Source: Acholoe squamosa
Lineage: Eukaryota > Annelida > Polychaeta > Phyllodocida > Polynoidae
Assembly: GCA_949317995.1 (NCBI GenBank)
Contig: OX439046.1
Span: 61,359,774 to 61,423,773, forward strand
Direction of reading: 5' to 3'
DNA: 64,000 nucleotides
Each line of letters opens with the position of its first letter. Positions within the stretch are counted from its first letter, which is position 1. A program made the position numbers and the translations under genes. The notes beneath the pieces are model-generated. The model did no database searches. It worked only from the letters and a program-made list of their open reading frames with translations, and was not told the origin of the DNA. This document shows, one piece after another, positions 1,283 through 64,000 of the stretch.

Positions 1283-1292
1283 CGTTGATGCC

Positions 1293-1754
1293 ATGGTCAG
1301 GGATAGTGCTGGGGACGTCCTGAGAAGTGCCGCACCCACCACCACCACTACAGCACAGATAGGGGGAACCCGCTGCTACCAAACTGCTTCCTGCCACGGC
1401 AGCCTCGCTTTGGATTCCTGCCTACCCGGATGTGGCACGGCAGCAGCAGCACCACCAGCAGCAGCATCTCAGTGTGTGCTCACGAGATTCTCGTGGGTGA
1501 ATGGTGGTTTCCGGTCTGTCATCAGTGAGGAAGCATTGGTGGATGTGGGTTATGATTGTATGAATGTTGAGAAGTGTTCTGGTGTTAGAATTGATGTTGT
1601 TGAGTGTAACTGCTACTACTATCCTCAAATGCAATTAAACTGCTGTATTTCTCCTTACACTGGATACCTCACGACCACCCCCGGCAGCACTAGCCGCATC
1701 AGCAGCAGCACAGAGGCCATATCGGCAGTGGCCACTGGATGTGACATGAGTATT
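1293..1754 (+). CDS. First coding block of a proline-rich protein (exon A, predicted)
   Basis: The frame opens with an ATG at 1293 in an optimal context (GCCATGG) and has 154 codons to the proposed donor GTGAGT at 1755-1760. An earlier ATG at 1288 makes an overlapping 11-codon upstream frame. The N-terminus carries a threonine run and an alanine/proline stretch, followed by a cysteine-containing segment with no domain I recognise. If the donor is not used, the frame stops at a TAA at 1782-1784. Using it, with an acceptor at 1830-1831, keeps phase 0 and joins the large proline-rich frame. The frame and start are seen in the sequence. The join is inferred, and the first cysteine-rich half may itself be partly untranslated. 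Confidence 0.45.
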
Positions 1755-1831
1755 GTGAGTACCAGGGGGGCAGCACGACAATAATAATACTTCTCTCCGG
1801 GTGTGGGGGCCCAAGCCTGCTGGCCTCTGAG
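1755..1831 (+). other. Possible 77-nt intron
   Basis: It begins with a consensus GTGAGT and ends in CCTCTGAG. Removing it fuses the frame open from 1293 with the frame open from 1745 to 3703 without breaking codon phase. The downstream frame has no ATG between its last upstream stop (1742-1744) and the proline-rich region, so it needs a spliced start. The acceptor is only moderately pyrimidine-rich, so other acceptors are possible. Confidence 0.35.
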
Positions 1832-3682
1832 AAGGGTGCGGCCACGGTGACTGGGGTGGGACCAGAACGTAAAGGGGGAGAGGTGGAGACCCAGGATAAG
1901 AGTACCACCCAACCACCACCCACCGCAGGGGGACCAGCCGCCGCGTGCCGCCCCCCTCCTCCACACCTGCCAGGGGGGGATAACAATGGAGGTAGTCCAC
2001 AGCCGCTGACCCAGCTGCAGCTGACCCCGGAAGTGAGGGCCACCGACAACAACGAAAACAGTGCTGAGAAAAAGGCTGCTGAGCCCCCACTACCAGCATC
2101 CCAACTACAAAAACCACCACCACCACCACAACAACTGGTGCCACTGCCACAGCAACCAGTACTGCCACAAAGGCCGGTACTGTCATCTCCACAACAACAA
2201 ACACCATCACCGCCATTGAAACAACCAATACCATCACCACCAAGAAAACAATCAGTAGCATCACCAGGACAGCAACGGTCAGTTCCATCTTCACCACTGA
2301 AGCCAGCACCGTCACCACCACTTAAGCGGCCGGTACCATCACCACCACAAAAACGGCCGGTACCGTCACCGCCACTAAAACGGCATGTACCGTCACCACC
2401 ACTAAAACGGTCGGTACCGTCACCGCCACTAAATCAACCTATACCATCACTACCACTAAGACAGTCAGTGCCATCGCCAGGACAACAGTCACCGGTTCCA
2501 CCATCACCTCAACAATTGGTGCCAACACCAACACAACCTCAGCCAGTACCACCATCAGCTCAACAATCTGTTTCATGTCAAAAACAACAACAGTCGATAC
2601 CACAATCACCCCTGGTACCAACACCAACACAACCTCAATCGGTACCGTCCCCACCGGTACCATCCCCACCCCTACAATCAGTGGCTCCATCACCGCAACA
2701 GTCAGTACCACCATCCCCACAACAACCTGGACCACCATTGCCACAACCAAAGGTACAATCTCCTCTACAACAGTCGGTACCAGCCTCACCCCTACAACCT
2801 GTGACATCCCCCCCTATCAAACCAGTAGGACCAAGTCCCCTACCACCACAGCCGGTACCATCCCCAGTACAACAGCAGCAAGCTGGACCACCACAACTGC
2901 CTGTGGCCACACCAACACCGCTGAAACCAAAACCAGCGAAGAAGCCCAATTTGCTCCTATGTGGTATTCGTAATCTGCCACGGTCGCTGCAAAGTAGTTT
3001 TGGTTCTGGTTCCACCCAATCCACAGCAGTGGTTCACCGGCCTTCCAACGTTGCCGCTGCTGCAGTTGCCGCAGCTGCAGCTGCTGCCGCTGCACCTCTT
3101 GCACCAACTTCCTCTTCCAGTGCTGGTATAAACAGGCTACCACTTGCTGCTGCCCAGTCCACTTTGCCCTTTAGTAGCAATGCCCAACGCAATATCATCC
3201 ACCACTACCCACATCTGCACCACCCGCTTCCATACCACCACGTTGCAAGTACTTCAGGTCTCGCCACCGCCTCTCCTAGCCCCACCGCCTCCGGGACTTC
3301 AAATTTGGCATCAGGCTCTGCTGCTGCATCTTTCGCAGCAGCTCAACTGCCGTCCACTTCGTCGACATTCTCGCCGTCACGCTCGCCGTTCTTGGTGCGC
3401 CGGTGCCTGCCGCTGCACAACACAGTTTACGGCGAGGACCCATTGAGCAGTAACACGGATGGCCGCTTGCCAGGGGAGACCCTACTCCACCTCCGGGGGA
3501 CGGTGGGGGACAGCATGGAAAGGGTGTCAATCGGGAGCTCGAGTATCCGCAAGGCCAGCAATGCTAGTACTCTCACCAACAACACGCCGGTCAACGCGCG
3601 CCCTATGGTGGTGCGGTACTCCATGCGCAAAGCCTCCATCACTCCGTCTCTGCGGCAGATCCAGCAAATACTACTCAAAGAG
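1832..3682 (+). CDS. Large proline-rich exon ending in a phospho-site module
   Basis: This open block of 617 codons is the longest coding frame in the window. In order, it has a charged start, about 300 residues of Pro/Ser/Gln with repeated PSPPLKR-type units, an alanine run near codons 3051-3095, a His-rich stretch and a Ser/Thr-rich region. It ends in a basic module containing SSIRKAS, YSMRKASITPSLRQIQQ and ILLKE. PSPPLKR fits the class II SH3 ligand pattern PxxPx(K/R), and the RKAS words fit the basophilic kinase pattern R-K/R-x-S. The exon ends in phase 0 at the donor AAAGAG|GTGGGT (GT at 3683-3684). Left unspliced, the frame runs only six more codons to a stop. The low-complexity part suggests a disordered scaffold or regulatory N-terminus. 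I do not recognise the family. The resemblance of the second copy (4758-4886) supports coding. Confidence 0.75.
2303..2440 (+). repeat. 27-bp in-frame coding repeat (PVPSPPLKR)
   Basis: Five consecutive 27-bp units encode nine-residue repeats of the form xVPSPPLKR. Flanking PSPP and PQQ segments are looser versions. The length is a multiple of three, so gain or loss of units keeps the frame. The same low complexity leaves several other frames open on both strands through 1.6-3.1 kb; those are shadows. Confidence 0.85.
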
Positions 3683-4757
3683 GTGGGTGTGGTTGTGTAC
3701 TGATAACTACTCCACTACTTCAACATGTTATCACTCAGGTGGTCAGTTTGTGCTATTCACTGAGGTGTGAGACAGTGCACCTCAGTCAGACCCAGTCCTG
3801 TGTGTGTATGTCTAGATGTATGAACACTATTATGCATTGACAGGGTGTGAGTACATACTGCACAGAGAGCTCACATTTATGTCCAGTTTGTCCCTACACA
3901 ATAGACAAGGATAAAGTCCCTGAAAAAAAGCAATCCCTGCAAACGTATAATTTTTTCACATAGCACTGGCCTTGGTGACCAGTAATATACGGTCTACAGC
4001 ACCCAATGCTTGTTTTGTTCTGGTTTTGTTGCTGTGTATATATGACAAAGAAAGCCGCTAGACTATAAAAACAAAGAACTTTTTGTTTGCTGGTGGGGGC
4101 CATTATAAACTGTTATACATGCAACAAGAGCTTCTAGTTGCTGACATCAAGACTTTGCTCACTGTAAGCTTTAAGGCCCTGTACATAGATGCTCAGTAGT
4201 TCACTCAGATAGATAGCTGCATTGCACTTCAAATTGCACCCATGTAATGCAATATAAGAGGCCTGGTTAGGTCTAGTGTCCATGTCATGGACAAGGACTT
4301 GAATTTCAGCTTAAGGTCTATTGTATAGTTACTATTGATGATACATACACTCCTGATGAAGATGTCAACAGTGATTCCAATACATACACACATACTATTA
4401 TGTAAATTAGTCAGGCAGGGCCACAACACAGACATTCAAAGAGTGAAACTGTTTTATTTCTTTGTGAGAAAAGGAAAGCTTCCAGGCAGAATTACAAGTC
4501 ATACACTTACACTGAAAGATTCTGAGAAAGGGATGTAGAGACATTACCATTGAGTGAGGTATACAATTAACATTATACACAGGCCTGGTAGGCTCTACCA
4601 CAGAATCCCACTCACAGAGAGAAGATACATTGGGTCACATAAGAGACCTATTTCATAGACACACAAGTCAGTGAATTAACTCAATATAAGAGACATTATC
4701 TTATACAGAGTAATCTATATATGATGAACATTGGCAGTTGGAAAGTACAATGAAACC
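3683..4757 (+). other. Intron between the two alternative first exons; possible second promoter
   Basis: No coding frame of quality is present. It starts with the donor after 3682. Close to its 3' end a TATATATGA word at about 4715-4723 lies some 40 bp upstream of the ATG at 4758 and could serve a second promoter. The rest is AT-rich with short recurring TATAAGAG words. Confidence 0.5.
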
Positions 4758-4886
4758 ATGAACTACAGAGATAGCATAAGGCGGCAGGATAGCATAAGGC
4801 GCCAGTCGCTGCGAAGATTCTCCTCTGTACGCAAGGCCTCAATAACTCCCTCATTGAAGCAGATACAGCAGATTCTACTTAAGGAG
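4758..4886 (+). CDS. Alternative first exon: 43-residue basic, serine-rich N-terminus
   Basis: An ATG with A at -3 (ACCATGA) follows an in-frame stop at 4725-4727. It opens 43 codons containing DSIRRQDSIRRQSLRRFSS and then RKASITPSLKQIQQILLKE. The last 19 residues differ from the end of the 1832-3682 exon at a single position (K for R). The exon closes with the same AAGGAG|GTGGG donor in the same phase 0. Successive RRQS, RRFS and RKAS words suggest several PKA-type phosphorylation sites. Because both exons end alike, they can splice to the same downstream exon and give long and short N-terminal isoforms. This arrangement is typical of genes with alternative promoters. The downstream function is unknown; any likeness to the phospho-site of phospholamban is too thin to use. 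Confidence 0.65.
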
Positions 4887-7333: not shown

Positions 7334-7383
7334 CACACACCTCTCACAGATATCCAAGCCGAGACGGACGCCGAAGGAAGAGA

Positions 7384-7590
7384 CGTTGTAGTCTAGTGGT
7401 TAGCGCATTGCGCTCAGCCGTTATAGGTATGCAGGTCGAGTCCTGGTCTGGGCGCATCTTTTCTTCGCCGTGTGCGCTGTCGCTGTCCGCTGCCGGGCGA
7501 CGAGGTGTATTATACACAAACCTAACCGCGAGAAGCATTCAAAGCAATTACACTCGGCCTACGGCCTCGTGTAATTATCCTTCACTAACA
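7384..7590 (+). mobile_element. tRNA-derived SINE
   Basis: A tRNA-like head at about 7384-7455 contains an A-box-like TAGTCTAGTGGTTAGCGC and a B-box-like AGGTCGAGTCC. The T-arm pairs CAGG with CCTG, but no proper acceptor stem forms, so it is not a functional tRNA gene. The GC-rich body that follows ends in a hairpin, TACACTCGGCCTACGGCC with GTGTA (about 7549-7574). The 3' boundary is approximate. Confidence 0.55.
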
Positions 7591-12078: not shown

Positions 12079-12136
12079 TTTAAGGTCGCTCAGTGCGAGT
12101 CGTTCGATTTTGTCTGGTTGGCAGCAGGGGTGGCAG
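12079..12136 (+). CDS. Candidate internal exon with consensus splice sites
   Basis: The 58 nt are flanked by a pyrimidine-rich acceptor (TTTACCTGTCAG) and a perfect CAG|GTAAGT donor. In phase 0 it reads FKVAQCESFDFVWLAAGVA plus one base, which fits directly after the phase-0 ILLKE donors at 3682 and 4886. The 1-nt overhang matches the start of the next candidate (17204). One other frame is also open, and the TATA-like word upstream allows a reading as an untranslated first exon. Confidence 0.35.
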
Positions 12137-22061: not shown

Positions 22062-22673
22062 GTCAGTGTACTCTCATCTGTGTAAAGAGCCACTATCTGC
22101 TATACTTCAGGGGTTGTACCAGTGTCATCTGTGTAAAGAGCCACTATCTGCTATACATCAGGGGCTGTGCCAGTGTCATCTGTGTAAAGATCCACTATCT
22201 GCTATACTTCAGGGGCTGTGCAAGTGTCATCTGTGTAAAGAGCCACTATCTGCTATACATCAGGGGCTGTTTCAGTGTCATCTGTTTAAAGAGCCACTAT
22301 CTGCTATACATCAGGGGCTGTGCCAGTGTCATCTGTGTAAAGATCCACTATCTGCTATACTTCATGGGCTGTGCCAGTGTCACCTGTGAAAAGAGCCACT
22401 ATCTGCTATACTTCAGGGGCTGTGCCAGTGTCACCTGTGAAAAGAGCCACTATCTGCTATACTTCAGGGGCTGTGCCAGTGTCATCTGTGCAAAGAGCCA
22501 CTATCTGCTATACTTCAGGGGCTGTGCCAGTGTCACCTGTGAAAAGAGCCACTATCTGCTATACTTCAGGGGCTGTGCCAGTGTCACCTGTGAAAACAGC
22601 CACTACCTGCTATACTTCAGGGGCTGTGCCAGTGTCACCTGTGAAAACAGCCACTATCTGCTATACTTCAGGA
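22062..22673 (+). repeat. 51-bp minisatellite, about 12 copies
   Basis: Twelve head-to-tail 51-bp units read AGTGTCATCTGTGTAAAGAG, CCACTATCTGCTATACTTCA and GGGGCTGTGCC. The 5' half carries GTCATCTGTGTAAAGA and the 3' half GTCACCTGTGAAAAGA variants, a sign of block-wise homogenisation. Because 51 is divisible by three, one frame (from 22058) is open for the whole array as 17-residue repeats, and the other two frames each stay open over part of it. No upstream splice or start context suggests translation. Confidence 0.95.
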
Positions 22674-62440: not shown

Positions 62441-62559
62441 ACTATACCCAGCAAATTGTCGTGACTCCTCGTCAACCTGTGTGAAGTGGCTCACACATGT
62501 CGCTAGATGGAACACGACGTCGCTATAGCACAAGATCACCAGGAATAGCAATGGTGGTG

Positions 62560-63060
62560 ATCACATGGCCTCACCTCAGATGGCGAGGATGGTGATCACT
62601 CAGACTCACCAGGGATGGCGACGCGGGTGATCACTCACCTCGCTAGATGAAACGCGCACCTCGTCATAGCACATGTTCACCAGGGATGGCGAGGATCGTG
62701 ATCACTCATCCTCACCAGGGATGGTGACATGAGTGATCACTCATCCTCACCAGGGATGGCGACATGAGTGATCACTCACTTCGCTAGATGAGACGCACAC
62801 CACGTCATAATGCACATTCACCACGGATGGCAAGGATTATGATTAGTCACCTCGCTAGATAAAACGTGTACGTCATAGCACAGGTTCACCTCAGAGGGTG
62901 AGGATCTTGATCACCCACACTCACCAGGGATGGCGACATGAGTGATCACTCACCTCGCTAGATGAAACGCGCACCACGTCATAGTGCAGGTTCACCATGG
63001 ATGGCGAGAGTGGTGATCACTCAGACTCACCAGTGATGGCGATGCTGGTGACCACTCATC
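62560..63060 (+). repeat. Left internal array of the 1.5-kb element
   Basis: Recurring words are TTCACCAGGGATGGCGACAT, GAGTGATCACTCA (an even GAGTGATCACTC palindrome) and CCTCGCTAGATGAAACGCGC. Units are mixed in order, with a short unit of about 35-40 bp. Confidence 0.8.
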
Positions 63061-63439
63061 TTGTTAGATGAAAAGCTCATGATCATCGACATTGGTAATC
63101 ATGCAGCCTCACATCTGCCAGATCAAAGTATGTTTTGCCAGAGAAGGTATTGCCATATGTATCTTCCCTCTAACCACAGACAAGGTGTTCATGTTGATAT
63201 TTACCTATGTATTTTTCCTGTAACCAGAGAAAAGGTGTTTATGGATAGTTGCTTTCATTTTAGAGATACCTCTATCTAAATTCAATTGATATTCTCTCTA
63301 TATAATCTTGTTTGATTCAACTCTGAAGTATTATATGGAAATCAGTGTGAAACAAAGCACATTTGATACGTATGAGACTTATACTTGATGCCCACACTTC
63401 CTAGATAGGCTACATGTTGAACAGTGGTGCTGTCTCAAC

Positions 63440-63860
63440 AACTTTGGCAATGGTGGTGATAAGTTGCCACTGTGAGTGAGAGTGAGTGACAGATGATGCA
63501 ATCCTCAGAGAGCATTGACTTGGAGTGACACAAATTCACGTATTGAGTGAGACCAATGTTGGCAATGGTGGTGATAAGTCGCCATTTTGAGAGAAGATTA
63601 ACTAGGAGTGATACACACTCAAGCAGTGAGTGAGAGCCATGTGGCAATGCAGGTGAAAAGTTGCCATTCTGACTGAGAGTTGACAGGCAGTGGCACATAC
63701 TCACGCAGTGAGTTAGATCCATGTTGGCGATGGTGGTGATAAGTCACCATGCTTTGTGAGGAATGACAAGGCGTGGCACATACTCACGCAGTGAGTGAGA
63801 TCATGTTGGCGACTGTTGTGATAAATCGCCATGCCATGTGAGACTGACACAGAGTGGCGA
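63440..63860 (+). repeat. Right internal array of the 1.5-kb element
   Basis: Five copies of TTGGCAATGGTGGTGATAAG followed by YCGCCAT and GTGAGTGAGA, spaced about 80-115 bp. Each copy can pair GGCGATGG with its own TCGCCAT. Confidence 0.8.
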
Positions 63861-64000
63861 AAGATGACGCAGTGAGTTATCACTCAGAAAGGAGTCACCA
63901 TTGATGACCAATCATGGCGACAGATAACGACAATTTGCTGGGTATAGTTTTATGCTTCTGCTGCACAAGTCAAAGCCCAAGAAAATAGTCTTCTTGTCAC

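Follow-up and report, generated by a model that had tools for sequence, protein, structure and literature searches.

Two exons at the locus end in the same 21-residue module

The window, a 64,000-nucleotide stretch of contig C12 from Acholoe squamosa (C12:61359774-61423773), carries near its start two open frames on the + strand that close on almost the same peptide. The features of this region are listed below, numbered from the first letter of the window; positions called extended continue that numbering along C12 beyond the end of the window.

1283..1754, + strand, probable upstream coding exon (exon A), with ATG 1293 in the favorable context GCCATGG and 154 codons open
1755..1831, + strand, proposed 77-nt intron from exon A to the long exon, phase 0, frame-compatible
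1832..3682, + strand, long Pro/Ser/Gln/Ala-rich exon of 617 codons that ends in the module
3515..3517, + strand, first in-frame ATG of the long exon, in the strong context AGCATGG, giving an N-terminus of 56 residues
3620..3682, + strand, module copy 1, SMRKASITPSLRQIQQILLKE, followed by the donor GTGGGT
4758..4886, + strand, short exon with its own ATG, MNYRDSIRRQDSIRRQSLRRFSSVRKASITPSLKQIQQILLKE
4770..4805, + strand, two tandem 18-nt units (DSIRRQ twice) within the short exon
4824..4886, + strand, module copy 2, SVRKASITPSLKQIQQILLKE, followed by the donor GTGGGT

The original prediction held that the two frames encode nearly the same last 19 residues and that an exon duplication lies behind this likeness. 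Indeed, both frames end in RKASITPSL[R/K]QIQQILLKE, with 18 of 19 residues and 44 of 57 nucleotides identical, and the match extends to 21 codons (S[M/V]RKASITPSL[R/K]QIQQILLKE; 19/21 residues and 47/63 nucleotides identical). We refer to this stretch as the module. Seven of its 21 codons are identical between the copies, 12 show silent differences and 2 encode different residues. Counted by the method of Nei and Gojobori, this corresponds to 13 differences at ~15.7 synonymous sites versus 3 at ~47.3 nonsynonymous sites (Fisher p 2.5e-8). Synonymous sites are saturated while the protein has been kept, which therefore points to long constraint on two translated copies of the module. The bases upstream of the module are unrelated (5/20 and 4/20 match), and downstream, counted from the start of the donor, identity is 10/20 bases at first and drops to 4/20. 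An alignment had suggested homology of the two exons back to their start methionines; this was set aside, as the similarity outside the module was not significant (p 0.06 to 0.11).

The module appears to be confined to these two places. A search of the 1.48-Gb genome (63 contigs) with the 43-residue peptide encoded by the short exon returned two places at E up to 10. A degenerate pattern for QIQQILLKE followed by GT matched 31 times in the whole genome, 2 of the matches being exact (these exons) and 29 carrying three mismatches; a control pattern gave 15 matches. No third copy of the module was found in the 1.48 Gb, the core pattern at up to two mismatches matching these two places only, and the module was not found in print within an open-access library. 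The substitution pattern together with the genome search excludes chance, and the predicted duplication is well supported for the module. As judged from the two copies, it is old, with strong protein constraint on both.

The donors that follow positions 3682 and 4886 are identical (GAG/GTGGGT) and both are in phase 0, as had been proposed. Their score lies at the 99.4th percentile among the 3,585 GTs of the window's + strand.

Translation starts of the short and the long exon

The two exons had been described as alternative first exons, the short one placing 24 residues packed with RRQS and RRFS motifs, and an ATG of its own, before the shared ending. For the short exon this description is well supported. 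ATG 4758 is present, and 24 residues precede the 19 shared ones to give a 43-residue form with three [RK][RK]x[ST] sites (RRQS, RRFS and RKAS), where 20,000 shuffles average 0.49 (p 0.007), and five Rxx[ST] sites, where shuffles average 1.45 (p 0.003). None of the 11 AGs at 4725-4830 is acceptor-like, their pyrimidine content lying at the 10th-59th percentile. Because it has its own ATG and no credible acceptor, the short exon fits a first exon, as far as its sequence tells. The frame is stop-free, but so are 61 of 1000 shuffles, which makes this weak coding evidence alone.

For the long exon the description fails. No methionine occurs before residue index 561, and therefore the exon cannot alone be a first exon giving ~600 residues. 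The frame itself is striking in its openness: it has 0 stops versus 16 and 14 in the other two + frames, none of 1000 shuffles was stop-free, and its first 561 codons contain no stop where 12.2 are expected from shuffles. A composition effect is thus unlikely. Pfam returned nothing for this exon at E up to 0.1. We considered third-position bias among its 27-nt repeats as proof of coding and gave it up in favor of the stop count, as the differences at the three codon positions (10, 22 and 28) are not dominated by the third.

Candidate exon A would supply the missing start from upstream. Its frame has 0 stops, against 6 and 10 for the other two + frames, although 5 of 1000 shuffles were likewise stop-free. 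On its 5' side is an acceptor, ...cccctacacag/CGTTG, with a pyrimidine content at the 99.9th percentile, and its phase-0 donor, ATT/GTGAGT, is at the 97th percentile. Its beginning at an acceptor implies yet another exon 5' of it. The acceptor of the long exon (ctctgag/AAGGGT) is at the 93rd percentile of pyrimidine content. The long exon would either continue candidate exon A, read from ATG 1293, or be translated from the internal ATG 3515, and the 56-residue form that starts there is similar in character to the short form.

A CLC gene lies downstream on the same strand

Exons of a CLC gene lie downstream of the pair, on the same strand and outside the window. The first recognised exon, identified by similarity to a paralogue on contig C4, lies ~137 kb away, and the recognisable exons run from C12:61502093 to about 61,582,900:

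C12:61502093 (extended 142,320), + strand, first recognised CLC exon, a GRDFES-like exon and the candidate join target, GRDFESVYTNHRYTQKEREILASHDSFDYLPSHS... (GRDFESVYTNHR)
extended 171.1, 197.0, 197.7, 200.6, 201.0, 203.2, 211.9, 213.4, 214.1 and 215.8 kb, further CLC exons
extended 221.0-223.2 kb, exons read as the CBS region

The exon at 142,320 begins in phase 0 at ttgcag/GGC CGT GAC, lacks a start codon and is translated as GRDFESVYTNHRYTQKEREILASHDSFDYLPSHSPVYKEWLKRQPA. Pfam Voltage_CLC scored over its cut-off at the C12 exons 61557493, 61560807 and 61573848, and below it at 61562968. A 488-residue join of the translated exons, minus one transmembrane exon, was compared with solved structures and gave 270 bits with ClC-6, 269 with ClC-7, 208 with plant CLC-a and 142 with ClC-2 and ClC-3. 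By these bit scores, which cover solved structures only, the gene is more similar to ClC-6/7 than to other branches.

Of the anion-path motifs, GSGIPE and GPEGP are present, and the third reads GIVVP where GxFxP is usual (GLVVP in the C4 paralogue). The last motif has Phe where Tyr is usual (NDVAFLLPIM). Candidate gating and proton glutamates are present in GPEGP and AMEEVSSFW. Here we assume the names and meaning of the GSGIP, GxEGP and GxFxP motifs, the usual residues and the roles of the two glutamates to be those customary for the family. ClC-6 and ClC-7 (CLCN6 and CLCN7) are endolysosomal Cl-/H+ exchangers. The downstream gene is probably a CLC of the ClC-6/7 type, and its product presumably a Cl-/H+ exchanger of the endolysosomal type.

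Genome-wide, 42 CLC exon matches fall into nine clusters, on C4 (two), C5, C8, C9, C12, C15 and C16 (two). The genome thus holds about nine CLC genes, at least three of them with a GRDFES-like exon.

The first recognised exon of the C4 paralogue has the same acceptor position and phase as that of the C12 gene. Given this and the lack of a start in the C12 exon, the recognised part of the CLC gene must be preceded by an exon that closes in phase 0. In the C4 paralogue, a different candidate phase-0 exon sits ~590 nt before the common acceptor (...RFQKSNSFSKYGSSIEPPKDDAIFYPDDDTHSFFAQ), and nothing resembling the module exon turned up in the 48 kb upstream in that paralogue, so that the module is not a family trait. 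Conversely, no counterpart of the C4 N-terminal exon was seen on C12, where the best tblastn match had an E of 0.18 with a longer query and 1.8 with the exon itself. In this group of CLC genes the N-termini would seem to be interchangeable, which fits a link between the exon pair and the CLC gene and at the same time removes paralogue support for it. The corresponding exon of a paralogue on C15 aligns at 38%, with an upstream view of 1.5 kb only.

Directly after the intact CLC exon of the C4 paralogue, C4:983785-985813 holds tandem partial copies of the exon tail (DYLPSHSVIYRHWI...), with nine matches that each carry an in-frame TAA. The candidate N-terminal exon of the paralogue, at C4 ~982500-982890, is preceded by partial tandem copies of itself.

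Search for the next exon on the + strand

The original prediction supposed a single acceptor shared by both donors. A candidate for it exists at C12:61502093, in phase 0; within the window, none was recognised by Pfam or by an exon scan, methods that miss small exons. Beyond 4,887, the three + frames of the window gave a single Pfam match, to a DUF at E 0.8, and none at E up to 0.5. On the + strand from 4,887 to 142,600 (extended), the matches at E up to 0.1 were one to reverse transcriptase, one to pKID and one to COQ9_N (E 0.006), all beyond the window. As Pfam misses the CLC exon at 142,320 too, its silence in between is weak evidence.

The pKID (CREB) match was rejected. An HMM built from three pKID sequences points to a minisatellite at extended 99,968, with a total E of 4.6e-12 that is made up of eight weak repeats, the best single one with an E of 1.2. 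A CREB gene in the region before the CLC gene is unlikely on this evidence. The minisatellite translates as (REVLTRRPMYQCISGLQ)n, which is the probable cause of the match.

The exon scan scored splice and codon signals, was trained on 584 codons of the C4 paralogue and was run over 4,000-223,300. Nine of its top 10 candidates overlap CLC exons (one in the wrong frame), the exon at 142,320 coming ninth; the exception is a SINE-like repeat at 7350-7504. Ranks 11-14 (12,079; 57,066; 182,215; 95,012) are non-CLC, with three of the four before 142 kb, and they outrank CLC exons at ranks 15, 19, 20, 27 and 32. The scan loses power below rank 10, and small exons or exons of disordered proteins may therefore be missed. 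On these sequence criteria, the CLC exon at 142,320 is the best-supported next coding exon on the same strand, though not the only possible one.

The SINE-like repeat extends over 7380-7560, has a tRNA-like head (GTCTAGTGGTTAGCGC...) and mimics a coding exon in the scan. Similar stretches lie near extended 121.8, 189.7-190.1 and 228.5 kb. ARAGORN called no tRNA at the repeat, no tRNA genes or Rfam families were found in the window, and no Pfam domains on the minus strand at 5001-49500. An 11.7-copy tandem repeat of 51 bp at 22074-22672 leaves several frames open at once, which seems to be a consequence of its period. A block of complex, nested tandem repeats occupies 62500-63877 (periods 35, 71, 82-83, 106 and 141). 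An early guess, the trehalose transporter Tret1, had no supporting paper and was given up once the CLC exons were found.

Interpretation of the exon pair

We favor the reading, with a probability of roughly 0.55, that the two exons serve a single gene as alternative 5' coding exons, and that this gene is most likely the ClC-6/7-type CLC gene. Three joins to the exon at 142,320, the one exon against which they were tried, stay open. The length of the intron, 137 kb, speaks against the link; since introns of 29 and 26 kb occur within the CLC gene, a first intron of this size would be long but in style.

Both exons could also be part of another + strand gene, unrecognised so far and located in the stretch from the window to the CLC gene, or nested in the latter, that encodes a disordered phosphoprotein without a Pfam domain. 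We lean against this, while granting it a real chance. Pfam is blind to disordered proteins and missed the exon at 142,320 as well, the N-terminal exons have no Pfam match, the C4 paralogue uses a different N-terminal exon, and five true CLC exons rank below the scan candidates at 12,079, 57,066 and 95,012. However, the SINE copy is the one candidate from 4.9 to 142 kb that ranks above the CLC exon at 142,320, and the phase-0 coding exon that the CLC gene requires upstream is exactly what the window supplies.

How the pair is used bears on a further alternative, which is compatible with the CLC link: the exons may not be two-promoter alternatives at all, the short exon being a start used rarely or in certain tissues only and the main product of the long exon beginning at ATG 3515, with the proline-rich frame upstream dispensable. 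This is a sizeable possibility, though less likely than not. The absence of methionine from the first 561 codons, the strong context of ATG 3515, the likeness in character between the short form and the 56 residues that this start would yield, and the 27-nt repeats, with differences not dominated by the third position, all suit it. A dispensable frame is hard to square with 561 upstream codons free of stops where shuffles have 12.2, and exon A supplies an in-phase start. By comparison, the view that the copies are a functionless product of a recent segmental duplication, retrocopying or an assembly error has the near-identical protein ending as its sole support. It is refuted by the substitution pattern, with 13 differences at 15.7 synonymous sites while the protein was kept, and by unrelated flanks, and we consider it extremely improbable.

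Under the favored reading, in which the pair belongs to the CLC gene, the CLC exon would be joined in phase 0 to donor 3682 or 4886, over a distance of 137-139 kb. The cytosolic N-terminus would then come from exon A plus the long exon (~771 residues), from ATG 3515 (56 residues) or from the short exon (43 residues). All forms would end in the 21-residue module, that is, a basophilic site (RKAS, then ITPS) and a short helix, before the CLC body begins. An AlphaFold model of the short form, made from a two-row alignment, predicts helices at residues 3-23 and 33-42 with a mean pLDDT of 73.8 and a pTM of 0.28; the RKASITP site would therefore fall in the gap between the two, right in front of the CLC body. 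Modification of this N-terminus by kinases, PKA for example, would alter its sorting or the way it contacts the transporter, and the alternative part in front would set the number of sites and the expression pattern. We infer the CLC splice, the separate promoters, the phosphorylation and the effect on transport or targeting from these features. The fullest form of the proposal would be a ClC-6/7-like exchanger with an anciently duplicated 21-residue phospho-switch in at least two alternative N-termini, placed beyond a 137-kb intron, in which the front (43, 56 or ~771 residues) is swapped for kinase input or location and the gate or docking element is kept. As a whole we hold this to be rather unlikely and put it forward tentatively.

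If the link is true, a module that was duplicated long ago and has hardly changed in either of two alternative ends would point out the residues that matter, and the locus would offer a natural pair in which to compare how phosphorylation controls an intracellular chloride/proton exchanger. A further suggestion is that genes of this kind can have 5' exons more than 100 kb away, easily missed by annotation.

Comparison with known CLC systems

ClC-6 and ClC-7 are the closest solved relatives of the downstream gene, which has GSGIP, GxEGP and the EE pair. It is equally distant from both and differs from them at GIVVP (versus GxFxP) and at the Phe (versus Tyr). To our knowledge, no duplicated N-terminal exon of this kind has been described in ClC-6/7. 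The LL of the module forms no acidic dileucine motif ([DE]xxxL[LI]) when inspected by eye.

The N-terminus has known roles elsewhere in the family. The N-terminus of ClC-7 carries lysosomal sorting motifs (PMC5362633, PMC7940362). The splice forms a, b and c of ClC-3 have similar transport and different location, ClC-3c having an amino-terminal sorting motif (PMC7940362). This resembles the arrangement proposed here in that one CLC gene gives several isoforms; ClC-3, however, belongs to the ClC-3/4/5 branch, not 6/7, and the passages on it in PMC7940362 mention no shared duplicated module. CLH-3a of C. elegans has an N-terminal splice insertion, deletion of which left gating unaltered (PMC5362633), and the N-terminus of ClC-2 can block the pore (PMC11962092, PMC5362633 and PMC7940362, cited jointly for this and the sorting signals). 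CLH-3a/CLH-3b and ClC-2 differ from the gene considered here in being plasma-membrane channels of another CLC branch. Alternative front ends on one CLC would be an arrangement of a known kind, with the duplicated part as its unusual feature.
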